Of a DNA stretch of 64,000 bases, positions 18,184-32,529 are shown in pieces. Position 1 is the stretch's first letter, and every line of letters starts with the position of its first letter. Source of the stretch: Methylobacterium sp. 77 (GTDB lineage: Bacteria > Pseudomonadota > Alphaproteobacteria > Rhizobiales > Beijerinckiaceae); the NCBI RefSeq assembly GCF_000372825.1, contig NZ_KB910516.1:148911-212910 (forward strand). Reading direction: 5' to 3'. The notes under the pieces are model-generated. The model ran no database searches. It saw nothing but the letters and a program-made list of their open reading frames with translations, and was not told the origin of the DNA. A program made the translations under genes and the position numbers.

Positions 18184-19266
18184 TCAGCGACCACCGTTGT
18201 ATTCCGGCAACGACGGCTTGCCACCGAAGATCACCTGGGAGGGGTCCCGCTCGAGGCTTTTCACCGTGCGGTTGAGCGTATTCAGCGTGCGCTGCCCATC
18301 CGAGGACAGGGCCTCGACCTCGCGCCGTCCAGTGCCGCTGAGCCGGCTGAAGCTCGACGCGATGGTGGAGGTCCGCTTATCGAGATTCTCGGACAGGGTG
18401 CGGAAGGCCTTGCCGGCGTCGCGCACCGAGATGGCGGCGTCGCGAACCTCGGCGAAGGTGCTGCTGCCGGCCTGACCGGATGCCGAGCCGAGGAAGCCTT
18501 CAGCGCCCTTCAACACGTTGTCGACCCGGTCGGCCGAGGCGTTGAGCTTGCCGGCGAGCGATCGTGCATCCTTCACCGCGCCCTCGATATCGGGCGTCGT
18601 GGTGTTGAGTGCGGCGGAGAAGCGCTCGGCGTTGTCGATGACCCGGTTGAGCTTCTGTCCGTCGATGGCCTTCACCAGCGAGCTCACCGCCGGCCCGGCA
18701 TCGTTCAGGGTCTTGGAAAAGGCTTCGACGTTGGCGAGCGTCCTGGTGATCGCGCCTTCGTTGCCGGCGACGAGTTTGTCGAGGCGCTGCAGCATGTCGT
18801 CGGCGCGCTGCGCGATCTGCTTGGCCGCCGCCATCATGTCCTGAATGTCGGAACTGTCGGCGAAGATCGTCGGGGTCTGGTCGCCCGAACCCGGTGTGAG
18901 CGGCGGCGAATCCGCGTTGCCGCCCGAGAGTGAGATCGTCGACACGCCAGTCAGCATCGCGGAATCGAGGCGGGCGCGGGTGTCGGCGCGCAGAGGCGTG
19001 GTCCGGTCCACTTCCACCATGGCGACGACGCGGCGCGGGTCCTGCGGCAGCAGGCGCACATCCATCACCTCGCCGACCTTGATGCCGTTGAAAGCGACGG
19101 TCGAACCCTTGGCGAGCCCGCCGACGCTGCCGGAAAAGACGATGCGCACGCCCTGGCGGACCTGGCTCCGCGATCCGCCCTGCAGCCAGAAAACGAAGCC
19201 GAAGGCGGCCACGAGGACCGCAAGGGTGAAGGCGCCGACAAGGGCGTAGTTCGCACGGGTCTCCAT
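18184..19266 (-). CDS. mlaD: MCE-family lipid-binding protein MlaD
   Basis: The roughly 360-residue protein has one N-terminal membrane anchor (YALVGAFTLAVLVAAFGFVF), an MCE domain (about 38-120, with GLAKGSTVAFNGIKVGEV) and a long helical C-terminal tail (coiled coil with KQIAQRADDMLQRLDKL). It would bind phospholipid in the periplasm as the substrate-binding part of the MlaFED-type transporter. The start is uncertain: METRANY (19266) is chosen from family comparison; MADPMETR (19278) is possible. The lipoprotein gene begins 109 bp downstream. Confidence 0.87.
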   Translation of the reverse strand: METRANYALVGAFTLAVLVAAFGFVFWLQGGSRSQVRQGVRIVFSGSVGGLAKGSTVAFNGIKVGEVMDVRLLPQDPRRVVAMVEVDRTTPLRADTRARLDSAMLTGVSTISLSGGNADSPPLTPGSGDQTPTIFADSSDIQDMMAAAKQIAQRADDMLQRLDKLVAGNEGAITRTLANVEAFSKTLNDAGPAVSSLVKAIDGQKLNRVIDNAERFSAALNTTTPDIEGAVKDARSLAGKLNASADRVDNVLKGAEGFLGSASGQAGSSTFAEVRDAAISVRDAGKAFRTLSENLDKRTSTIASSFSRLSGTGRREVEALSSDGQRTLNTLNRTVKSLERDPSQVIFGGKPSLPEYNGGR

Positions 19267-19349
19267 CGGATCAGCCATACTCCGGATGGGCATCGCCCGT
19301 GCGGTGCGCCACGGCACGCAAGGCGTGGACCGTCCGCAGGTTCCTGTGT

Positions 19350-20174
19350 TCAAGCATGGGCGTGCACCCCGCCGGTCACGATGGCGCGGGCCCGCTTGCC
19401 GTGGAAATAAGAGCGCAGCCAGGGATGGTCGCTCGCCAGCATGGCGTCGATCGGGCCCTGCGCGATGATCTGGCCGTCGCCGAGGGCCGCGATGCGATCG
19501 CAGGCCGTGTAGAGGCTGTCGAGATCGTGCGTCACCATGAAGACGGTGAGACCCAGCGTCTGTTTCAGCGTGGCCACCAATTCGTCGAACTCGCCGGCGC
19601 CGATCGGGTCGAGACCGGAGGTCGGCTCGTCGAGGAAGAGGATTTCCGGGTCGAGGGCGAGGGAGCGGGCGAGCGCGGCGCGCTTGATCATGCCGCCCGA
19701 GAGTTCGGAAGGCAGCTTGTCGGCGGCATCGGGCTTCAGGCCCACCATCTCGATCTTGAGGCGCGCGAACTCGTCGAGCAGGCGCTCGGACAGGTTCAGG
19801 TGCTCGCGCATGGGCATCTGGATATTCTGCTTGACGGTCAGGGCCGAGAACAGCGCGCCCTGTTGGAACAGGACGCCCCAGCGCTGCTCGATCTGCCGGC
19901 GGCGGGCCATGGTCATTCCGTCGACATCCTCGCCGAACACCTCGATCGTGCCCGAACGCTTCGGCACGAGGCCGAGGATGGTCCGAGTCAACACCGACTT
20001 GCCCTGCCCGGAAGGGCCGACGAAGCCGAGGATTTCGCCCCGATAGATGTCGAGGTTGAGCCCCTTCATCACGATCTTATCGCCAAAGCCGACCACGAGA
20101 TCGCGGACGCCGATGATGACGTCGCGAGGTGGGGCGCTGTCGAACTGCGCGGGGGGCGAGGACATGTGATTCAC
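19350..20174 (-). CDS. mlaF: ABC transporter ATP-binding protein MlaF
   Basis: The 274-residue ATPase powers the MCE lipid transporter. It has Walker A GPSGQGKS (about 53-60), Q-loop LFQQGALFSALTV, ABC signature LSGGMIKRAALARSLAL, Walker B ILFLDEPTSGLDP and H-loop VTHD. The GALFS and LSGGM variants are typical of MlaF/Mkl ATPases. The stop of mlaE lies 5 nt before this start, so they are one transcript. MSSPP at 20165 is an alternative start. Confidence 0.93.
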   Translation of the reverse strand: MNHMSSPPAQFDSAPPRDVIIGVRDLVVGFGDKIVMKGLNLDIYRGEILGFVGPSGQGKSVLTRTILGLVPKRSGTIEVFGEDVDGMTMARRRQIEQRWGVLFQQGALFSALTVKQNIQMPMREHLNLSERLLDEFARLKIEMVGLKPDAADKLPSELSGGMIKRAALARSLALDPEILFLDEPTSGLDPIGAGEFDELVATLKQTLGLTVFMVTHDLDSLYTACDRIAALGDGQIIAQGPIDAMLASDHPWLRSYFHGKRARAIVTGGVHAHA

Positions 20175-20179
20175 GGCGG

Positions 20180-21349
20180 TCAGAAATCGATGGCCGCGAA
20201 GAACACGGCGAAAAGTCCATCAAGCACGATGACCATGAAAATAGACTTCACGACTGAGGCCGTGACGTGGCGCCCGAGCGATTCAGCCGATCCTTCGACC
20301 GCGAAACCTTCGATCGTGGCGATGATTCCGATGATGAGTGCCATGAACGGCGCTTTGATCAGACCGACCGCCACGTGGTGGAACGAGACTGCGGCCTGGA
20401 GCCTGGCCAGGAACGCGTCGACGGTCATGCCGCCGTAGAGCGATGCGGTGAGGCCGCCGCCGGCCAGAGCCGCCAGTGAGGCGAGGAAGGCGAGGATCGG
20501 CAGGCCGATCACCAGCGCGAGAATGCGCGGCACGATGAGGATCTCGATCGGGTCGAGGCCCATCACCCGCAGGGCATCGACCTCCTCGCGCATGCGCATG
20601 GACCCGATCTCGGCGGTGAAGGCCGAGCCCGAACGTCCAGCCACCATGATCGAGGTGAGTAGGACGCCGAGTTCGCGCAGGATGAGCAGGCCGATCAGGT
20701 TGACGACGAAACTCTGCGCGCCGAAGCGCTGAAGCTGGAAGATGCCTTGCTGCGCGACGATGCCGCCCACCAGGAACGAGATCAGCATGATGATCGGCAC
20801 GCCGCGGAAGGCGACCTGTTCGAGCTGGTTGACCAGTGCCGTGCCGCGGAAGGTGCTGGGGCGCGAGGCGACTCGGATACACGCCGTCACCACCTCTCCG
20901 AGGAAGGCCAGGCCGCTCACCAGATCGGATTTCGCCCCGACGACGCGCATTCCGAGATCGTGCAGGAAGCCGATGAAACGCCCGCGCTGCGGCTTGCCGA
21001 TGTAGCCATCGTCCGGCAGCTTCATCTCGCCGAGGAGAATGCGGTGCTCGGGCGTGGTGCCGGCATAGGCGAGGCGGCCGCCGGCGGCTTCGATCTCGCC
21101 GCGGGTCCGTTCCAGCACCCAGGCGCCGAGTGTATCGAGGCGTTTGACGTCGGAGAGATCGAGGAGGATCGGAGTACCGTCGGCATGGCCGGCGATATGG
21201 GCGGCGGCCTTCTCCACGGACGAGCCCTGATCCGCAGTCCATCGGCCGCTCAAGGCGACGCGTCCACCCTCGCCGAGGATCACGGCTTCGGCGACATCTG
21301 GATTCTGTCTGGCTTCAGCGTGGCGCACGAAGCGCAACTCCCGGTTCAT
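20180..21349 (-). CDS. mlaE: MlaE-family permease with N-terminal STAS domain
   Basis: The 389-residue inner-membrane permease of the lipid transporter has an N-terminal STAS-like domain (about 20-115; ILLDLSDVKRLDTLGAWVLE) fused to the MlaE domain. The MlaE domain shows IIMLISFLVGGIVAQQGIF, LGVLLTSIMVAGRSGSAFTA and EIGSMRMREEVDALRVMGLD, a family signature. Fusion of STAS and permease replaces the separate MlaB of enterics and is common in alphaproteobacteria. First gene of the four-gene operon. Confidence 0.92.
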   Translation of the reverse strand: MNRELRFVRHAEARQNPDVAEAVILGEGGRVALSGRWTADQGSSVEKAAAHIAGHADGTPILLDLSDVKRLDTLGAWVLERTRGEIEAAGGRLAYAGTTPEHRILLGEMKLPDDGYIGKPQRGRFIGFLHDLGMRVVGAKSDLVSGLAFLGEVVTACIRVASRPSTFRGTALVNQLEQVAFRGVPIIMLISFLVGGIVAQQGIFQLQRFGAQSFVVNLIGLLILRELGVLLTSIMVAGRSGSAFTAEIGSMRMREEVDALRVMGLDPIEILIVPRILALVIGLPILAFLASLAALAGGGLTASLYGGMTVDAFLARLQAAVSFHHVAVGLIKAPFMALIIGIIATIEGFAVEGSAESLGRHVTASVVKSIFMVIVLDGLFAVFFAAIDF

Positions 21350-22608: not shown

Positions 22609-22778
22609 GGAGAAGACCGCTCGGTTGAGATGCGAAGCGACAGAAGGGCGAAGCGCTGCTGGCCGCTGACGAAGACCCGACCCGTAAAGCCGGCGTTAAA
22701 GCCGTCATGTCAATCTGCCGCCGCTGGTCCCCGCGACTTCGCGCAATGGCGCGAGGCACCATCAAGGACACGAGTTTC

Positions 22779-23756
22779 ATGTCGGTTATGCGTTCGCTCA
22801 CATCGGTCGATGCGTCGGAATACGACCGGATCGAAGCCGCCATGAGCGAGAGCGAGCGCGGCCGCTGGTTCCTCGCCGAATATGGCCGCCGCAACCGGAC
22901 CGCCGACACCGACATGCTGCTCGGCGCCATCTCGCGCCTCGAGCACGCGGTGACGGCCGACCGCCCCTCCGACCAGGAGAGCGAGCGGGTCGGGCGCATG
23001 CGCGGCGACCTGATGGACATGGCTCACGCCATTGCCCGCACCAAGGCCGAGATCGCGGCGATCAGCACGGTGGACCAGGATCAGAGCCGGCTCGGCATCG
23101 CCTCCGTCGCCCTCGACGCGATCATCCGCTCCACCGAGCGCGCAACGTCCGACATTCTCGGCGCCGCGGAGGAGGTCCAGGAGACCGCCTGGACCTTGCG
23201 CGAATCCGGCACCGATCCGTCGATCTGCGACGTGCTCGATCGCCGGGCCACGGAGATCTACACTGCCTGCTCGTTCCAGGACCTGACGGCGCAGCGCACT
23301 GCCCGCATCATCCATACCCTGCGCTATCTCGAAGAGCGCCTCGCGGCGATGATCGCGATCTGGGGTGGCGAGGTCGACTCGATTCCGCCGGCACCGGGCT
23401 CCACCCTGCCGAACGTCGCCGCGGACCTCGACCAGAGTGACGTGGATCGCTTCATCGACATGGACGTCGACCGGGTAGAGACCAAGCCCGTGCTGCCTCC
23501 TTTGCCTGTCTCGGAGAGCATGCACGACGAAGTGCTGTTCGTGGACACGTCATCGCCCGACGAAGGGGCCATGTCTGAAGGGCCTATTCACGAAGTGCCC
23601 GATGCCGAGGTTTCGGACGACGAGGCCGCCCCTGTCGAGGTTCAGGACGACGAGGCCGAGCCGACGGCAATCGCAGCGGAGAAGACCGACATCGCCACGG
23701 CCTTCGCCGATATCGACGGCTTGAGCGAGGAAGAAAAACTCGCCCTGTTCTCCTGA
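22779..23756 (+). CDS. CheZ-like response-regulator phosphatase
   Basis: The 325-residue protein resembles CheZ, which dephosphorylates CheY-P. The hallmark FQDLTAQRTARI is present with Asp168 and Gln172, the same four-residue spacing as the catalytic pair Asp143/Gln147 of E. coli CheZ. It is preceded by a long helical region (TERATSDILGAAEEVQETA) able to form the four-helix bundle. The acidic C-terminal tail (about 240-325) replaces the usual linker and lacks an obvious CheY-binding helix. The ATG at 22779 has AAGGA upstream; starts at 22707 and 22746 do not. No other che gene is close; an HPt gene lies 8.4 kb downstream. Confidence 0.72.
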   Translation: MSVMRSLTSVDASEYDRIEAAMSESERGRWFLAEYGRRNRTADTDMLLGAISRLEHAVTADRPSDQESERVGRMRGDLMDMAHAIARTKAEIAAISTVDQDQSRLGIASVALDAIIRSTERATSDILGAAEEVQETAWTLRESGTDPSICDVLDRRATEIYTACSFQDLTAQRTARIIHTLRYLEERLAAMIAIWGGEVDSIPPAPGSTLPNVAADLDQSDVDRFIDMDVDRVETKPVLPPLPVSESMHDEVLFVDTSSPDEGAMSEGPIHEVPDAEVSDDEAAPVEVQDDEAEPTAIAAEKTDIATAFADIDGLSEEEKLALFS

Positions 23757-23809
23757 ACCTGAAGAATTCAACCGCGCGCAGCGTCTCCGGCGCTGATAAA
23801 AGGGCCGCC

Positions 23810-24250
23810 ATGGCCCTTCATCTCCTGAAGCTCTGCGTCGGTCCCGCGACGATCGAGGAGCTAGAACAGCGCATCGCCCGCAATCGGGCCGACGCGTCGG
23901 AGGCGGGGCGCGATCCTTCCACATTCCATGTGACGCGGATGGTGCCGAAGCGGGCTTCGGCCATCGCCGGCCAGGGCTCGATCTACTGGGTCATCAAGGG
24001 CACGTTGTGCTGCCGTCAATCGATCATGGCGATCGAGCCGTTCACGGATACGGATGGAATCGGACGTTGCCGCCTCGTCCTCGATCCCGTGGTCGTGGCG
24101 GTCAATCCGCGCCCCTGCCGACCGTTTCAGGGCTGGCGCTATCTGACGGTTCGGTCGGCACCGGCCGATCTCGACATGCACCGGTCCGACGGCCTCGCCG
24201 ACATGCCCGAGTCGCTGCGCCGTGAACTCTCCGTCCTCGGCCTGATCTGA
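23810..24250 (+). CDS. DUF1489 family protein
   Basis: The 146-residue protein matches DUF1489 (COG5458), alphaproteobacterial proteins of unknown function. Recognisable parts are LHLLKLCVGPATIEELE, the VTRMVPKRASAIAGQGSIYW block, GIGRCRLVLDP and FQGWRYL. No signal peptide or membrane segment, so probably cytosolic. The start has AAGGG 5 nt upstream. It lies 53 bp downstream of the CheZ-like gene in the same direction and converges with the giant coiled-coil gene. Confidence 0.85.
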   Translation: MALHLLKLCVGPATIEELEQRIARNRADASEAGRDPSTFHVTRMVPKRASAIAGQGSIYWVIKGTLCCRQSIMAIEPFTDTDGIGRCRLVLDPVVVAVNPRPCRPFQGWRYLTVRSAPADLDMHRSDGLADMPESLRRELSVLGLI

Positions 24251-24305: not shown

Positions 24306-27300
24306 TCAGGCCCCCTCGAAGCGACCGCTCGCATGAGCGAGCATCGTGTAGACCTTGCCCGTTTCCGAGGTGAGGTAGGCATCGGCCCGCCGCGAGTCGC
24401 GATCGTTCTTGGAAACTTCGCCGAGCAGCCGCTCGAACTCCCCGACATAGCGATCCACCGTCCGGCGGAACTCGGCATCGGCCGCGTAGCGCCTGCGGAT
24501 CTCCTCGAAGGTCTGCCGACCCTGCGCCGTGTAGAGGCGGCGATCGAACAGGTTCGGCTCACCGCGACGATAGCGCTCCCACAACTCCACCGCCGTCTGA
24601 TGCTCGATCATCTTGGCGATGTCGGTTGAGATCGTCTCGAGGGCCGTCCGGCTCCGCTCCACGGCGGCCTTGTTCGGCTCGGTTCGCGTGGACTCGATTT
24701 TGGTCGAATCCGGCTTGTTCGCCTCCGGTCTGGTTGCCTCCGATTTGGCCTGTTCCGCCTTCACCACTCCGGGCTTGGACTGCTCGGCACGATCGGGAGG
24801 GGTCTTCGCCGGAGAGGACCCATCCGTGTCGTCATCGAGGGAGGCGCGGGTCAGGAGGTCCGAGAGCCAGCCTCTGTTGTCGCGCCCGCCGCGACCGGCC
24901 GGGGCGGGGATGCGCGAGGTTTCACCGGAACGCAGGGGAGCTTGGCTGGCAGCCCGGCCCGTAGCCGCCGGAGCGGAGACGATGCTCATCTGCTGGCCTG
25001 TGCGAGGCTCGGGAGCCTTGTCCTCACGGGCTTTCGCTTCAGGAACATTGGCACCGGTCCCGACCGTATCGGGCTCCGCCGGCTTGGGCTTCGCGGCGAT
25101 CGAGTCCGGAGCCTTGGCCTCCTGAAGCTTCGGGGCCGGAGCGTCGGCCTTGCGCGGCGCGGGGGCCGGCGCGGTCTGTGCCTTTGCGATTGGGGCAGGG
25201 CCACCATCCGGCTCCGCCACGTCGACGCCACGCCGCGACCGCGAGACGAGTGATGACAGTTCGTTCAGCGCCTTGATCTGGTCGGACACGACCCGGCGCA
25301 TCTCACTGGTGGCCTCTTCGGTCTCGCGTGGAATTGCCAGCACGCCGCGCTGCAGATCCGCCCGCGTGGCGTCCAACTCGCGACGAATCTCCGCTGCCAT
25401 CTCGCGCATACCCGCGACCGAGTCGCCGAAGCGTCCGGCCGCGCCTTCGAACACCACCATCATCTGCTCGGACGCACCGGAGATCGCCGCACGGACGGCG
25501 GCGGCAGTGCGCTCGCCCTCGTTGCCGGCATTGTCGCGAAGGCCCTCGAAGGCTCCGGTCACGCTGGCGCCCGCACTCTGGGCCGCATCCGACAAGCTGG
25601 TGGCGATACCACGAGCCCGCTCCTCAGCGGAACTGAGGGTCTCGGCCATCAGCGTGTCGAAGCGCGCGGTCTGCTCTTCGAGGGCGCCGGAGCGCGCCTC
25701 GATGCGTGTCAGCACCTCCTCCACCGCCTTGTCGCGGTTGGCGAGAAGATCGACGAGGCGCGCCTCGATGGATTCCAGCGAGCCCGCCGCGTTCGTGAGA
25801 GTGCCGGAATGGGTGCGGGCGATCTCGGTCAGCGAGCTTCCGCGCGCATCGAGCGATTTGGCGAGGTCGGAAGCATCGCGCAATGCGCCCTCGGCCACCG
25901 CCTTGAGCCGATCGACCTGTTCGGCCACGCTGCTGCTGGCGCGCTCGGTCTCGCCGCTGATCGCGGTAAGCGTTGCCTGCACCTGCTCGACCCGGCCCGA
26001 AAGGCCCTGTTCGATGGCGCCAAGATTCTCCCCCGCATCGCTGACCAGCTCGCGAAGGGCCGCGTTCGCACCTTCCACCCTATGGAGGACACCGCCGAGT
26101 TCGCTGCGAAGCCGATCGCTTGCTTCGTTGAGGGTCGCCAGCGCGCGAGATGCCCCGCCATCGATGGCCGCCAAGAGTGCGTTTCTGGATGCATCCGACT
26201 GTTCGGTGAGGTCGCGGACCCGGTCGCGCAGAGTGTCTGCGAGAGGCGTACCGCACTCGTTGAGGATGCGTTCGATCTCCTGGCTGCGCTCTCCAAGCGC
26301 CGCAGCAAGCTGGGACGCCGGGCCTTCGACGATGTCGCGAAGGCGCTCGGAATGCGTCGCCATCGCCTCGACGACGAGGTTTCCGCGTCCGTCGATCGTA
26401 TCCGCGATCGATCCTCCGCGCTCTTCGATGGCACGGGTGATGGTCTCCGCGCTCTCGGCGAGGCGGCGTGACAGCGACTGCCCGCGGGATTCGATCAGCG
26501 TAGCCAGGGCCGTCGACCGGCGATCGAAGCCGGCGATCATGTCCTGGTTGCGCCCGTCGATGAGGGCGGCGACGGCCTCGTTGCGCTGATCGAGAGCCGT
26601 GGCGAGCGCATCGGCATGGGCCTGCGCCAGGGCGGCGTGGCGGTCGACCCGTTCGTCGAAAGCGGCCAGCATGGTTGCGCTGTGCCCGTCCACCAGAGTG
26701 GCATAGGCGTCCTGGCGGTCGTCGAAGGCATTGGCCAGCGCATCGCCGCGTGAGGCGACGAGAGAGGCGAACACCTTCATCCGGCTGTCGATACGGTTCG
26801 TGAAGGCCTCGCTGCGGGCATCCACCGCCTCGGTCAGGGCGGTGCCCTGGTTGTCGATGGTGCGGGCGAATGCCGCCGCGCGGCTGTCCACCAGCTGGTC
26901 GAGGGCCCGCAGGCATTCGTCGAACAGGGATGCGATAGCCTGAGTGCGGGCATCCACCGATTGGGTCAGCGATAGGCCCTGGTGGTCGATGGTGCTCGTG
27001 AACTCCGCCGTACGGTTGTTCATCAGGTCGTCGAGCGCGCGCAGGCGCTCGTCGAATACGGTGGCCATGACCTGGGCGCTGGCCTCGACGGCCTGGCTCA
27101 GTGATGTACCGCGATTGTCGATGGTCCGAGCGAACTCCGCTGCGCGGTTGTCCACCAGATCGTCTAGGGCGCGCAGGCGCTCGTCGAAGAGTGCGCCCAT
27201 GGCATGGGTGCGGTCATCGACCGACTGATACAGGGCGCTGCCCTGACTCTCGACGGTGCGGGCGAATTCCGCCGTCCGGGTCTCCACGATGGTGTCGAGT

Positions 27301-30300
27301 TCACGAAGCCGATCTTCGAAGAGGGCGCGCAGTGAGCCCGTCCTGTCGTCGAGTGACCGGGCGAGGGTGCCGCCGCGGTCGTCGACCGTGTGAGCGAGCT
27401 GCGCCGTCCGGGTCTCGACGAGGTGATCGAGCGCGCGCAGGCGCTCGTCGAACAGAGTGCTCAGCATGGCCGTGCCCGCATCGACCGAGCGGGTGAGGAC
27501 GGAGCCTTGCGTGTCCAGGGTCCGGACGAATTCGGCCGAACGGTTCGCCACCAGGCTGTCGAGGGCGAGCAGGCGCTCGTCGAACAGGACGCTCATCGCC
27601 TGAGTGCGCGCATCGACCCGGTCGGTCAGGGCCTCGGCACGGCCATCCACGAGCCCGTCGAGAGCCGTGAGGACGTCGTCGAACAATGTCCGAAGGCCGA
27701 GAGTGCGCGCCTCGACCGATGCTGCGATTTGGGAGCCGCGACCGTCCACGAGCTCGTTGAGGGCACCGATGCGCTCGTCGAACAGCGCGATCAGGTCACG
27801 CGTACGGGTTTCCACGGCACCGGCGGCACCGCCGAGGCTGGCCTCGATCGTATCGACGAAGGTCCGTCCACGCTGGTCGAGCGAGTCGTGCAGCGGCGCG
27901 AGCCGGTCGTCGAAGCTGCTGGTGAGAACCTGCGAGTGGTCGTCCAGCATGGTCCGGATCTCGTTGGTCCGGTTGTCGAGGAGCTGGTGGACGGTGCGCA
28001 CGCCCTCATCGAGCAGGCTGCTGATATCGGTGGTCCGCTGGTGCAGCGTCGAGCCGAGCCGGCCTTCGCCCTCGCCCAAGAGCCGGTCCGCATCGGAGAC
28101 GACCTCGCGCAGGCGAGCGATCACGGTGTCGCTGCGCTGTTCGAGAAGTTCCGCGAGGGATGAACCACCACGATCGAACAGGTGTGCCAGTTCGGTGATG
28201 CGGGTCCCGAGAGCCCCGAATACGATGCGTCCCTTCTCGTCGAGTTCCTGGCCCATGGCCGCCGTGCGCTCGTCGATGAGCGCCCCCAGCGCTTCCGCAC
28301 GGTTCGAGAACGAGGCGCGGATCGCTTCCGCCTGTCCGGCGAGGGCATCGTTGGCATGCCCCGTCCGGCTCTCGATCATCTCCACGAGCTCGCGGGTGCG
28401 GTTGGAGAGGTCCTCGTCCACGGCCCGGGTGCGGCTCTCGATGAGGCGGATCGCCTCGAAGGCCTGTGACCCGAAAGTTTCGTCGATGAGGCGGCTGCGC
28501 TCCTCCAAAGCCGCGGCGATCGAATCCAGGCGCCCGATCACCCCGGTATCGAAGCGGCCGACGCCTTCTTCCAGTCGATGCGACAGTTCGAGGCTCTGGC
28601 GCTCGAAGCGCTCGGCGATCTCGGTGGAGCGGCTTCCCAGGGTGTCGCCCAGGCTCAGGCTGCGGGCGGCGATGTCCTGCGCCATGCCGTCGGCGCGGGC
28701 GTCGAGCGTCTGGACGAGGTCACGGCTTCCCTCGACCATGATGCGTGCCATCTCGCCGGTCCGCAGGATCAGAGCTTCGTTGAGGGCCGTGGCGCGGGAG
28801 CCGAGCTGCCCGTCGATCTGGTTCACCAGATGGGTGAAGGTCTCGCCGATCTCGGCGGTGCGCTTCACGGAACGCTCTTCCAGGGCGCCAAGCTGGCTCT
28901 CCACGGTCTCGCGGGCTTCGCGAGTCCGCTCGGAGATGGTGTCGGCCACGGCCTTGCCCTGCACCGTGATGACCCGGTCCATCTCCTGCAACTGACCGGA
29001 GACGGTCTCGCTCAGGGCGGAGGTGTCGCGCGCGATGCGGTCGGCGAGGATATCGCCGCGGGCGATCGTCTCCTGAAGCGCGGCGAGGCGGTCGTTGAGC
29101 ACGGTGTCGATGGCCTTCGCCCGGCTCTCGGTCGTGTCGGCGAAGCTCGCGCTGCTCTGGGCGAGGGCGTCGTTGACGCGTGCGCTCTGAGCCGTGACGG
29201 CCAGGACGATGTCGCGGCCGGTATTGGCCAGCTGACCGTGAGCCTCCTCGGCGTGGCTCGTGATCAGGTCGGTCATGCCGCGGCTATGCGTGCCGAAGGC
29301 GGTCTCGACGTCCCTGATCCGGGCGGCGAGCTCGCTGCCGACATTCTCGGCAGCGCGGGCGATCGAGCCCGTCGCTTCGGTGGCCCGGTGAACCAGGGTC
29401 TCGTCGATCTCCGCGAGCGTGCGGCGCAGGGCCTCCATCGCGTCCTGCGCGCGTCCTCCCACTTCTCCGCTGAGGCCGCTGGCGGCTTGCTGGAGGAGCT
29501 GAGCGGCTTCCTCCGTGCGAGCGGCAAGCTCGCCGGAGGTAGCGGCGAGCCGGCGCTCGAAAATCTGTACCGCTTCGACCGTGCGGGCTTCGAGCTCGCC
29601 GGTGGCGCTCGCCGACGAGCGCCGGAGCGCCTGGGCCGCTTCCGCGGTGCTGGCACCGAGCGCCACGGTCGTCTCCTCCGCGCTGCGGCGGAAGATGTCG
29701 GCGGCCTCGCTGGTGCGGGACCCGATCTCGCTGCCGAGGGTGTCGAGGACGACGCGAAGGCTCTCGATCGCGCCGGTCGAGCGGGAATCGAAGGTGCTGC
29801 CGAGGACGCCGAAGGCACCGGTCAGGGTGAGGGTCGCGTCTTCGACGCGCTGGGTGACGAGCCCACCGACCTGTTCGCCGGCCTTGTTCAGGCGGCGGAT
29901 GCTGGTGTTGACGACCGAGGCCGTGTCCTCGCCGCTGCTGCGGATCGCGGTGGCGGCCTCCGCCGAGCGGGCATCGATCTCGCCATTGAGGCTCGCCACG
30001 GTGCTCCGGAGGTTGTCCACCGTACCCTGGGCCCTGGTCTCGAAATTGGTCCCGAGCGACGCAAGTGCGCCATCCATCGCCAGCGCGGCTTCCTGGGCAC
30101 GCAGGGTGACGAGGTCGCCGATCCGCTCCCCGGCAGAGGTCAGGTTGCTCTCGAGCGTCCCGCCCTGAACGGTGAGGGTCTCGTGCAGGCGGGCGGAGAC
30201 GGAGTCGATGCGCTCGGCCAGGATTCCGGCGCGCTCGTCGATGCCGGAGCCGGCATGTTCGATCGACCGCACCAGGTCGTCGCGGAGGGCTCCCGTCCGG

Positions 30301-31910
30301 GCGGCGAAGGTCTCGACGATGCCCTCGGAAGCCAGCGCCAGACCGGCCTGAGCCTCGCGAGTGCGGCTCTCGATCGCTTGGGAAACACCGCTGCCGGCAG
30401 CCTCGATCTCGTTGCGCAGGGCCGTGCCGCGGTGGGTGATGTCCTCGGTGAGCGCTGCACCCGTCGCAGCGAAATGTTCGCGCAGGGCGGTGCCGGTTTC
30501 GGCGAAGCGTGCGGTGATCTCGCCACCGGTATTCGAGAAGTTCGTGGTGAGTTCATTGCCCCGGGCGAGGAATGCGCTCTCGAGCCCGCGTGCGGAATCC
30601 TCGAAGGTCTGGCGGACTTCGCCACCCTGGCGGTTCAGGCTCTCGATCACCTCCATCCCGGTCTGGGCGAGGGTGCGCGCCACTTGGCCGGCATTGTCCG
30701 CCAGCGTCGCGGTGAGCATTCCGCCGGTCCGCTCGAAGGCCAGCGTCACGTCGGCGGCGCGGTTTTCGAGAGATTGCGTCAGCGTGTTGCCGACCTCGGT
30801 GAGGCTGCTGCGAACACCTTCACTGGTGCTGGCGAGGCGCTGGACGAGGTCGTCGCCACGATCGGTCACGAGGCCGACCACACGGTCTCCGGCTTCGCCG
30901 AGCGCGGCGGTGATGGCATCGCCACGATTGCCCAGTGCCGAAGTGATCGCCTCGCCGCGCGCGTCGAGGGCGCCGGTCACCCGATCGCCGGCGCCGGTCA
31001 CCGCGGCGACGATGCGCTCGGCCGCTCCGTCGAGCTCCTGGGTCAGGTTCTGATGCGAACCGGTGATCGCGCCGCGCACCCGCTCGGCATTCGCGACGAT
31101 GGACTCGCGCTGGGCGACCAGTTCGTCCACGAGCGAACGGATACGGATCTCGTTGTCGGAATAGGCGCGCTCCAGGGTCGCGATCTCACCGCGTACCAGG
31201 GTCTCCAACTCGCCGGCACGGGCCAGCGCACGCTCGACGCCGTCGCCCACGGCCGCGACCTCGCGGCGGACCGTCTGCGACATCGTGAGGACGGCATCGG
31301 TCGAGAAATTCTCGGGCTCGGCGAGACGGATCGCGACCTCGCCCACGGCACGCGCCACGAGGCGCATCTCCTGGGCACGGACCGCGAGCATCGCCATGAT
31401 CGCGAAGAGGACGACCGGGCCGACCAAGGCAGTCGCGCCGACGGCGGCCTGAAGCGCGGTCATGCCTGTGAAGAAGGCCTTCAACTCGCCCCCCGACTGG
31501 TTCCAGACGAGAGCGAGAAGTGCGCCGAACCAGACAGCGGAGGCGAGTGCGGCGAAGATATAAGGCTTGCCGGAGGGGCGAACGCGCAGGGTCTGCTGCA
31601 GGATGCCGATGTTCTGGCGGTCGTCATTGGCCACCATCGAGCGGTCGGGCGGCAGCAATCCGCCTTCCCGGCGCGGCCGGTTGCGGTCCGGCGGAGGCAG
31701 ATCGGAGGCCAGGGGCTGGTCGAGATCGAGGCGCGGAGGAACGAAACGGCCGTTCTGTTCGCTCAACGGATCGCCGTCGCCGACGTCAGGAAGCCGCGGC
31801 TCGACACGGGGATCCGTCGCCTGGGTCGAGGGGAAGTCCAGGTTGAGGGCCTGCTCGATGGCGGAAAGAGCCGCCTCGGCCGGGTCCTTGAGCTTCTTTT
31901 CCGTGGCCAT
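24306..31910 (-). CDS. Giant membrane-anchored repeat coiled-coil protein (2534 residues)
   Basis: This is the largest gene in the window. After a Pro-rich cytosolic N-terminus (1-115) come two membrane segments (about 117-136 and 152-176). More than 2000 residues of continuous amphipathic helix follow, built on 11-residue periods of the apolipoprotein A/E type; six clean 44-residue tandem copies (unit core LFDERLRALDDLV) lie at 26829-27620. A Pro/Ala/Lys linker (about 2210-2420) leads to a compact C-terminal domain of about 110 residues (MIEHQTAVELWERYRRGEPN). Cys is almost absent. The ATG at 31910 has GAGGCG upstream and begins MATEKKL. Similar proteins are often labelled 'kinesin-like' or 'apolipoprotein', but there is no motor domain. 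Role unknown; a polar scaffold or envelope-spanning tether is plausible. Confidence 0.85.
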   Translation of the reverse strand: MATEKKLKDPAEAALSAIEQALNLDFPSTQATDPRVEPRLPDVGDGDPLSEQNGRFVPPRLDLDQPLASDLPPPDRNRPRREGGLLPPDRSMVANDDRQNIGILQQTLRVRPSGKPYIFAALASAVWFGALLALVWNQSGGELKAFFTGMTALQAAVGATALVGPVVLFAIMAMLAVRAQEMRLVARAVGEVAIRLAEPENFSTDAVLTMSQTVRREVAAVGDGVERALARAGELETLVRGEIATLERAYSDNEIRIRSLVDELVAQRESIVANAERVRGAITGSHQNLTQELDGAAERIVAAVTGAGDRVTGALDARGEAITSALGNRGDAITAALGEAGDRVVGLVTDRGDDLVQRLASTSEGVRSSLTEVGNTLTQSLENRAADVTLAFERTGGMLTATLADNAGQVARTLAQTGMEVIESLNRQGGEVRQTFEDSARGLESAFLARGNELTTNFSNTGGEITARFAETGTALREHFAATGAALTEDITHRGTALRNEIEAAGSGVSQAIESRTREAQAGLALASEGIVETFAARTGALRDDLVRSIEHAGSGIDERAGILAERIDSVSARLHETLTVQGGTLESNLTSAGERIGDLVTLRAQEAALAMDGALASLGTNFETRAQGTVDNLRSTVASLNGEIDARSAEAATAIRSSGEDTASVVNTSIRRLNKAGEQVGGLVTQRVEDATLTLTGAFGVLGSTFDSRSTGAIESLRVVLDTLGSEIGSRTSEAADIFRRSAEETTVALGASTAEAAQALRRSSASATGELEARTVEAVQIFERRLAATSGELAARTEEAAQLLQQAASGLSGEVGGRAQDAMEALRRTLAEIDETLVHRATEATGSIARAAENVGSELAARIRDVETAFGTHSRGMTDLITSHAEEAHGQLANTGRDIVLAVTAQSARVNDALAQSSASFADTTESRAKAIDTVLNDRLAALQETIARGDILADRIARDTSALSETVSGQLQEMDRVITVQGKAVADTISERTREARETVESQLGALEERSVKRTAEIGETFTHLVNQIDGQLGSRATALNEALILRTGEMARIMVEGSRDLVQTLDARADGMAQDIAARSLSLGDTLGSRSTEIAERFERQSLELSHRLEEGVGRFDTGVIGRLDSIAAALEERSRLIDETFGSQAFEAIRLIESRTRAVDEDLSNRTRELVEMIESRTGHANDALAGQAEAIRASFSNRAEALGALIDERTAAMGQELDEKGRIVFGALGTRITELAHLFDRGGSSLAELLEQRSDTVIARLREVVSDADRLLGEGEGRLGSTLHQRTTDISSLLDEGVRTVHQLLDNRTNEIRTMLDDHSQVLTSSFDDRLAPLHDSLDQRGRTFVDTIEASLGGAAGAVETRTRDLIALFDERIGALNELVDGRGSQIAASVEARTLGLRTLFDDVLTALDGLVDGRAEALTDRVDARTQAMSVLFDERLLALDSLVANRSAEFVRTLDTQGSVLTRSVDAGTAMLSTLFDERLRALDHLVETRTAQLAHTVDDRGGTLARSLDDRTGSLRALFEDRLRELDTIVETRTAEFARTVESQGSALYQSVDDRTHAMGALFDERLRALDDLVDNRAAEFARTIDNRGTSLSQAVEASAQVMATVFDERLRALDDLMNNRTAEFTSTIDHQGLSLTQSVDARTQAIASLFDECLRALDQLVDSRAAAFARTIDNQGTALTEAVDARSEAFTNRIDSRMKVFASLVASRGDALANAFDDRQDAYATLVDGHSATMLAAFDERVDRHAALAQAHADALATALDQRNEAVAALIDGRNQDMIAGFDRRSTALATLIESRGQSLSRRLAESAETITRAIEERGGSIADTIDGRGNLVVEAMATHSERLRDIVEGPASQLAAALGERSQEIERILNECGTPLADTLRDRVRDLTEQSDASRNALLAAIDGGASRALATLNEASDRLRSELGGVLHRVEGANAALRELVSDAGENLGAIEQGLSGRVEQVQATLTAISGETERASSSVAEQVDRLKAVAEGALRDASDLAKSLDARGSSLTEIARTHSGTLTNAAGSLESIEARLVDLLANRDKAVEEVLTRIEARSGALEEQTARFDTLMAETLSSAEERARGIATSLSDAAQSAGASVTGAFEGLRDNAGNEGERTAAAVRAAISGASEQMMVVFEGAAGRFGDSVAGMREMAAEIRRELDATRADLQRGVLAIPRETEEATSEMRRVVSDQIKALNELSSLVSRSRRGVDVAEPDGGPAPIAKAQTAPAPAPRKADAPAPKLQEAKAPDSIAAKPKPAEPDTVGTGANVPEAKAREDKAPEPRTGQQMSIVSAPAATGRAASQAPLRSGETSRIPAPAGRGGRDNRGWLSDLLTRASLDDDTDGSSPAKTPPDRAEQSKPGVVKAEQAKSEATRPEANKPDSTKIESTRTEPNKAAVERSRTALETISTDIAKMIEHQTAVELWERYRRGEPNLFDRRLYTAQGRQTFEEIRRRYAADAEFRRTVDRYVGEFERLLGEVSKNDRDSRRADAYLTSETGKVYTMLAHASGRFEGA
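26829..27620 (-). repeat. Six tandem 132-bp repeats coding 44-residue units
   Basis: Within the giant coiled-coil gene, unit boundaries fall at 27620, 27488, 27356, 27224, 27092 and 26960 (minus-strand order). Each unit codes 44 residues (4 x 11), with near-invariant LFDERLRALD at position 12-21 and a conserved R-x-A-x-F-x-x-T block at 27-34. Copies diverge at the DNA level, so the array is old and kept by selection on the protein rather than a recent expansion. Flanking sequence continues the 11-residue period less regularly. Confidence 0.8.
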
Positions 31911-32202
31911 ACAACGCCTCGTTACGCAGGTCGCAGAAGCCGGCCGCATCCGGTGATCGACGACATTTTTACCAATTTACCAAGGAAGTTTAGACCTCGG
32001 CGCGAGACCCGGATACCCGAGTGGGTCGAACCGTCCAAAAAACCTTAACGGAATGGTTACCAAGCCTGGTGCCGGCTCCATCCCGTCGGCTTTATGCATG
32101 ATGCCCCAAGGCTTAAACGGAAGCGAACGATGCCGGGCGCTCCTGTGGATAGCCTGGCCGAACGAAGCCCGATCACGGGGTTCGGTTTAGGCGAGGGGAC
32201 AA

Positions 32203-32529
32203 TTGACCAGGTTGATCGATCACGCCTACCTCGCCGAACAGACCTTCGGCGACGACGAACTCGCCCGTGAATTGCTGGGGCTCTTCGAGGCTCAATGCCG
32301 CCGGCTGCTGCCGGGGATTGCCGATACGGCTATCGATCGATGCGCCCGGGCCGACCTCGCCCACACCCTGAAGGGGTCCGCACTCGGCGTGGGAGCGGGC
32401 CGGGTCGCCGAACTGAGCACTGGCATCGAGGATGGATTGAGACGGGACGCCGACGTTCCGGCGGCGGTTCTCGCCGATCTCACCGACGCGGTGGTATCTA
32501 CCCTGGCGGAAATCGACGCACTTGCCTGA
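32203..32529 (+). CDS. HPt-domain phosphotransfer protein
   Basis: The 108-residue protein is a stand-alone histidine phosphotransfer domain. The phosphorylated His54 is in LAHTLKGSALGVGAGRVAEL, preceded by the helix ELARELLGLFEAQCRRLLPG. The start is TTG at 32203 with GAGGGG 4 nt upstream. It should relay phosphate between a hybrid kinase and a response regulator, neither of which is adjacent. It is divergent from the giant coiled-coil gene (292 bp between starts), which suggests shared regulation but does not prove a shared role. Confidence 0.83.
   Translation: MTRLIDHAYLAEQTFGDDELARELLGLFEAQCRRLLPGIADTAIDRCARADLAHTLKGSALGVGAGRVAELSTGIEDGLRRDADVPAAVLADLTDAVVSTLAEIDALA

Follow-up and report, generated by a model that had tools for sequence, protein, structure and literature searches.

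The window, a stretch of 64,000 nucleotides from Methylobacterium sp. 77, holds a gene for a giant protein on the minus strand and, directly upstream and divergent from it, a gene for a stand-alone Hpt phosphotransfer protein. The features discussed below are as follows, with residue numbers of the giant protein referring to the 2547-aa frame.

24306..31949, minus strand: giant protein, very probably of the GPR/RgsE family; open frame of 2547 aa, or 2534 aa from the start at 31910.
31365..31568, minus strand: membrane hairpin inside the conserved N-terminal domain (residues 128–195), from hydropathy and from N-terminal alignment with a Sinorhizobium meliloti protein and class relatives.
25332..31313, minus strand: apolipoprotein-like helical rod with an 11-residue period (about residues 213–2206; PF01442 at 218.8 bits over 17 stretches, and periodicity).
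26805..27274, minus strand: tandem array within the rod, 132 bp (44 residues) in 3.6 copies with 71% matches (TRF).
24663..25331, minus strand: proline-rich linker (residues 2207–2429), from proline positions.
24309..24662, minus strand: conserved C-terminal domain (last 110–118 residues or so), from profile matches in relatives.
31950..32202, no strand: intergenic region of the divergent pair and candidate shared promoter region, with CtrA-like motifs enriched in relatives.
32203..32529, plus strand: stand-alone Hpt phosphotransfer protein of 108 aa with the motif HTLKGSA (Pfam Hpt at 31.9 bits against a cut-off of 24.6; model pLDDT 97).

Mla-type lipid transport genes (MlaD and MlaE with one gene between them; 18184–21349, minus strand) lie about 3 kb past the giant gene on its 3′ side. 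A gene for a 349-aa protein that matches CheZ below threshold and a gene for a DUF1489 protein (22707–24250, plus strand) converge on the 3′ end of that gene.

The giant frame has its second ATG at 31910, preceded by GAGG; no comparable motif stands before the first ATG. The product from 31910 starts with MATEKK, and the 2089-aa S. meliloti protein described below starts with MATKKT. Because of the upstream GAGG and this likeness, the start at 31910 was preferred, which bears out the length of 2534 residues given in an earlier sequence-only reading of this DNA. The GC content of the gene was 0.83 at third codon positions versus 0.51 at second positions, and third-position values stayed at 0.78–0.89 in each slice. 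An antisense frame of 1156 aa inside the gene was taken, from codon-position GC, as a shadow of codon bias. A frame broken in relatives had been named as a sign against the earlier reading; 58 of the 59 matched frames among near genomes were free of internal stops, and the one flagged (G056) proved stop-free on a second look. In two closed or near-closed genomes (G019 and G406), the C-terminal domain sits in frames of only 273 and 306 aa, which are possible frameshifts.

Hydropathy windows over the cut-off were confined to residues 128–198 and fell into two groups (128–151 and about 158–198), matching the two membrane segments already noted from the sequence. The roughly 2000 residues of helix with an 11-residue period that had been read there were also recovered: Pfam matched PF01442 (apolipoprotein A1/A4/E) in 17 stretches with a score of 218.8 bits against a cut-off of 90, hydropathy power in the rod was 127.9 at 3.663 residues (11/3, or 11 residues per three turns) while none of 100 shuffles exceeded 12.9, and residues 213–2206 contain three prolines. 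Residue identity at lags of 11, 22 and 44 was 0.160, 0.201 and 0.223, respectively, versus 0.089 expected. Pfam found neither a motor nor an enzyme domain in the giant protein, as the sequence-only reading had stated. Database names given to relatives (kinesin, RmuC, MlaD and phage-related) were rejected, since Pfam showed none of these domains in the giant protein or its S. meliloti relative, the two that were scanned.

The short and distinct C-terminal domain of that reading is conserved across the order, where 332 of the 347 genomes sampled carry it. Its best AlphaFold model had a pLDDT of 86 and was all helical, the remaining four models reaching 69–77. A fold search of the domain against the PDB gave no match at E ≤ 0.001, a sequence search returned designed proteins and weak matches, and no convincing Pfam model was found in 18 members. 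The best named relatives of this C-terminus were Methylobacterium records, with identity of up to 100%.

The S. meliloti Ak57 record CP090106.1 encodes a 2089-aa protein (UIJ93612.1) annotated as “kinesin”, in which Pfam detected no motor domain and PF01442 scored 257.8 bits. BLASTP with the low-complexity filter off aligned this protein with residues 14–1153 of the giant protein (26% identity, E = 8e-64, partly repeat) and with residues 2338–2544 (43% identity, E = 3e-42), leaving residues 1154–2337, the middle of the rod, outside the alignments. The published RgsE of S. meliloti (SMc00190) also has 2089 aa, localises to the growing pole and sets rod shape (PMC7327166). We read UIJ93612.1 as probably being RgsE from this exact length and from homology rather than from a locus tag. 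It has a homologous N-terminus, repeats and C-terminal domain, and a divergent Hpt gene adjoins it, as here. Record CP090106.1 itself is labelled pSymB, yet both its length of 3.7 Mb and the presence of genes for cytochrome bc1 and folate suggest a chromosome, so a labelling mix-up is probable.

GPR of Agrobacterium tumefaciens (Atu1348) is a protein of 2115 aa that likewise localises to the growing pole and sets rod shape (PMC8262873). Compared by its published description, GPR has two N-terminal membrane helices, near-continuous PF01442 repeats and a proline-rich region; all three are present in the giant protein, which is about 420 residues longer. The C-terminal end of GPR is published as needed for function. 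Among the matches listed in the protein searches, relatives from Bartonella, Pseudochrobactrum and Rhizobiaceae were present, and none was named Agrobacterium or TipN. The giant protein is thus very probably the Methylobacterium member of the growth-pole-ring family of GPR (Agrobacterium) and RgsE (Sinorhizobium). As such it adds a member to a family already described and is not a new kind of protein, and its size and repeats are not novel. The sequence-only reading had not recognised the family and had overlooked the Hpt gene next door.

The distribution of the C-terminal domain was examined in near genomes, in the order and in the class, a search of other proteins that the earlier reading had suggested. 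Of 61 near genomes, 59 gave a match. The order yielded 332 matched genomes out of 347 (292 of the 298 of good quality), and a class-wide sample 109 out of 289 (E ≤ 0.01). The domain is single-copy in 328 of the 332 matched genomes of the order, and Methylobacterium sp. 77 has one match. Twenty class relatives were taken in full, 19 from outside the order and one (G130) from the window's own family; 19 were 727–2121 aa long and one had 330 aa. At least two N-terminal hydropathy windows, some of them overlapping, were found in 16 of these proteins, and the other four (G069, G183, G097 and G130) had one window each, 28–36 residues long. The C-terminal domain ended within 14 residues of the protein end in all 20, and the N-terminal domains aligned with that of the giant protein. 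When nine class relatives were scanned with NCBIfam, all matches fell below the cut-off, and most of them were to coiled-coil models. One family member (P0045) occurred in a eukaryote protein set and is probably bacterial contamination.

The best match to the MreB model TIGR00904 in Methylobacterium sp. 77 had an E-value of 1.5e-12, far below the cut-off, while typical carriers reach about 1e-157; together with three genomes of its family, it shows weak MreB matches only. The lack of an MreB-grade match in the genome is as expected of a polar grower of this order. Three partial matches to PF06723 (MreB_Mbl), at 31.9–55.1 bits against a permissive cut-off of 27 bits and in frames of 432–644 aa, were not counted as MreB because TIGR00904 scores were far below the cut-off, and we read them as other actin-fold proteins. 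Outside the order, MreB was present at E ≤ 1e-59 in 98 of 105 genomes with a C-terminal domain match, indicating that this domain alone is no marker of polar growth. Rgs proteins and MreB have been stated in the literature to exclude each other; given these 98 genomes, that exclusion does not extend to the wider family that shares the C-terminal domain. According to a suggestion in the RgsE paper, distant homologues may serve another function (PMC7327166).

The sequence-only reading had proposed that the protein could tether, measure or organise the cell pole or envelope. Organising is the part that gains from the published roles of GPR and RgsE, and by analogy with them the giant protein likely organises the cell pole. 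In Agrobacterium, six GPR foci are described as arranged in a 200-nm-wide ring close to the growing tip, and loss of GPR gives round cells with dispersed peptidoglycan synthesis (PMC8262873). Function is damaged in GPR lacking the last 10, 221 or 332 residues; paired foci remain after the 332-residue deletion, and foci are lost when the form with the 221-residue C-terminal deletion is expressed alone (PMC8262873). If the Methylobacterium protein works as these homologues do, the hairpin would anchor it in the inner membrane, and the rod would lie in the cytoplasm and multimerise, as in the ring at the growing pole of Agrobacterium. Such a scaffold would keep the synthesis of both peptidoglycan and membrane confined to the pole, and its C-terminal region may be needed more for function than for ring formation.

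Two other roles were weighed against that of a scaffold for polar growth. A polarity scaffold of the TipN kind would not build wall but would label the new pole for the machinery of chromosomes or flagella. GPR has been stated to be similar to TipN (PMC8546619), and the shorter class relatives have a similar plan, with an N-terminal membrane segment, a long middle and the same C-terminal domain. Caulobacter crescentus TipN itself, compared by description and published as similar or analogous to GPR, is far shorter than the giant protein at 882 aa. Depletion of RgsE or GPR is reported to affect rod shape and polar peptidoglycan synthesis (PMC7327166, PMC8262873), which speaks against such a role, and we consider it improbable. 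Even less probable is a rod that measures length, or a tether reaching over hundreds of nanometres, although about 2000 helical residues almost without proline would suit either. Stop-to-stop frames ranged from 2031 to 3331 aa among Methylobacterium and Methylorubrum loci and from 1582 to 3331 aa among 70 relatives (a 273-aa fragment, L012, was left out). Across 116 pairs of more than 60% identity among 16 near relatives, pairs that are not independent, 586 of 761 gaps of at least five residues were multiples of 11, versus about 69 expected by chance. The five nearest relatives (87–88% identical) differ mostly by 44-residue blocks, and four of the five also show a 13-residue gap relative to the giant protein. 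Rod length is therefore widely variable, mostly in multiples of 11, which disfavours the measuring part of the earlier proposal.

The foci formed by GPR are given as 50 nm wide (PMC8262873), which also counts against a ruler and suggests that the rod is probably folded back. The extended reach of some 300 nm in the sequence-only reading fits 2000 residues at 0.15 nm each; as a dimension in the cell it sits poorly with foci of that width. For GPR, the extended helical domain of 1700 residues has been given as 600 nm (PMC8262873), whereas 1700 residues at 0.15 nm make an alpha helix of about 255 nm, which favours the earlier reading's 300 nm for 2000 residues. Taken with the class relatives, the N- and C-terminal domains hint at a broader family of scaffolds in which the middle can be lengthened freely, and this again argues against a ruler and leaves the pole-organising scaffold as the preferred role.

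The partner protein carries the H-x-x-K-G phosphorylation motif (HTLKGSA), and its model has the four-helix Hpt fold, matching Hpt proteins in the PDB with a Foldseek probability of 1.00 and a best E-value of 2.4e-3. By sequence, its closest solved relative is Caulobacter ShpA (PDB 2ooc, E = 5e-12), with 30% identity in the fold match; the likeness is one of sequence and fold only. No published work known to us connects the gene for ShpA with a polar scaffold. Methylobacterium sp. 77 has six Hpt matches, of which the partner is the sole stand-alone one, the others lying in frames of 767–1278 aa.

CtrA-like motifs (TTAACCAT, TTAA-N7-TTAA and GTTAAC) were enriched in the intergenic regions of 63 relatives compared with shuffled and AT-matched windows. 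The motif TTAACCAT occurred in 15 of the 63 Hpt–giant intergenic regions versus 0.7 in shuffles, and in 8 versus 1.3 in AT-matched windows, a comparison that used 40 of the 63 loci and in which the control windows may be coding. It was found in none of 55 Methylobacterium-type loci. Since the control windows may be coding and the motif was not found in these 55 loci, we treat the CtrA-like motifs between the two genes as a lead only.

The pairing of the two genes was followed in a sample of 40 genomes from 30 families of the order, in which about 3 kb upstream of the giant gene was searched (2 kb for the genome from family f9). A divergent Hpt gene was present in 31 of the 40 genomes and in 26 of the 30 families. 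Outside the order it adjoined 11 of 40 relatives in 7 of 32 families (about 2 kb upstream for G166). The Hpt gene is divergent from the giant gene in S. meliloti and Sphingomonas too. In a set of 87 loci with an intact upstream region, which are mostly from Methylobacterium and not independent, an Hpt gene lay within 2.5 kb in 74 (one on the same strand), elsewhere in the locus in six (further off or in a longer frame), and was missing in seven. This set includes 18 further 20-kb loci, 17 of them with an Hpt gene, on the same strand in L191 and more than 2.5 kb away in L192. Two loci of family f106 (L221 of G142 and L237 of G257) have an upstream same-strand frame of about 900 aa that includes a stretch resembling Hpt and may encode a hybrid kinase.

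Searches for the partner used two profiles, one built from 81 sequences and one from the single Sphingomonas sequence, and three matches in family f37 scored best with the latter. The phospho-accepting histidine was kept in 81 of 82 Hpt proteins of mostly Methylobacterium-type loci, 29 of 30 in the order sample, 8 of 11 outside the order, and all seven from G037 and six genomes of the order negative for the C-terminal domain. It was lost in the Sphingomonas Hpt, in L268 (G043) and in all three f37 relatives (L216, L217 and L228). The Sphingomonas protein bears the name Hpt in its database entry and scored 16.6 bits against the Pfam cut-off of 24.6.

Fifteen genomes of the order gave no match to the C-terminal domain; six of these, each at least 86% complete, were examined and all had the Hpt gene. 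In all six (L285–L290; families f194 and f23) it divergently flanks a protein of 1521–1732 aa whose N-terminus has a membrane segment and in which the C-terminal domain is not detectable, so that the Hpt gene located a giant where the C-terminal domain search had failed. Separate membrane windows numbered two in four of these proteins, overlapped in that of G455 and were reduced to one in that of G626. Pfam, run on three of the six, found PF01442 in all three.

Eight genomes with a giant gene and no adjoining Hpt gave no match to the Hpt profile at E ≤ 1e-5, and no Hpt was found in the six Microvirga loci. One genome counted as Hpt-negative (G601) has a short partial match beside the giant gene. 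Because of these eight genomes and six loci, we conclude that the Hpt is dispensable and that some lineages have lost it.

Added to the identification of the giant protein as a GPR/RgsE-type scaffold, and not replacing it, stands the tentative reading that the rod and the stand-alone Hpt form one module, in which the Hpt would relay phosphoryl groups at the growth pole and the scaffold would recruit, or be controlled by, a phosphorelay timing polar growth. In its favour are the divergent arrangement across most sampled families of the order and in some relatives outside it, a histidine that is mostly kept, the status of the partner as the only stand-alone Hpt of its genome, and its place beside a giant in all six genomes that gave no C-terminal domain match. 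Weighing on the other side are the 29 of 40 relatives outside the order without an adjoining divergent Hpt, the eight genomes that keep the giant protein with no Hpt-profile match, the six Microvirga loci, and the loss of the histidine in the f37 proteins and in the Sphingomonas protein, the last of which also falls below the Pfam cut-off. In addition, a term search found Hpt, phosphotransfer and phosphorelay absent from the main texts of the GPR (PMC8262873) and RgsE (PMC7327166) papers.

The gene pairing suggests, at the level of sequence, a phosphorelay input to polar growth. No description of it was found in the literature searched, and the conserved Hpt partner, with its predicted function, is a new lead. 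Polar growth in this order may even be wired to a phosphorelay through a dedicated pair, with the Hpt having kept its place next to the scaffold from a time before this order diverged from certain other alphaproteobacteria, a proposal that we regard as rather doubtful. Speculatively, this Hpt might connect orphan hybrid kinases that control cell shape with the growth pole, as the relay missing between them. A candidate is RdsA, described as an orphan hybrid kinase that controls cell shape in Rhizobium etli, with no Hpt in its vicinity according to that account and with normal GPR expression on its depletion (PMC9022086). The deep pairing of the two genes thus offers a lead on how polar growth may be switched on and off in bacteria without MreB.
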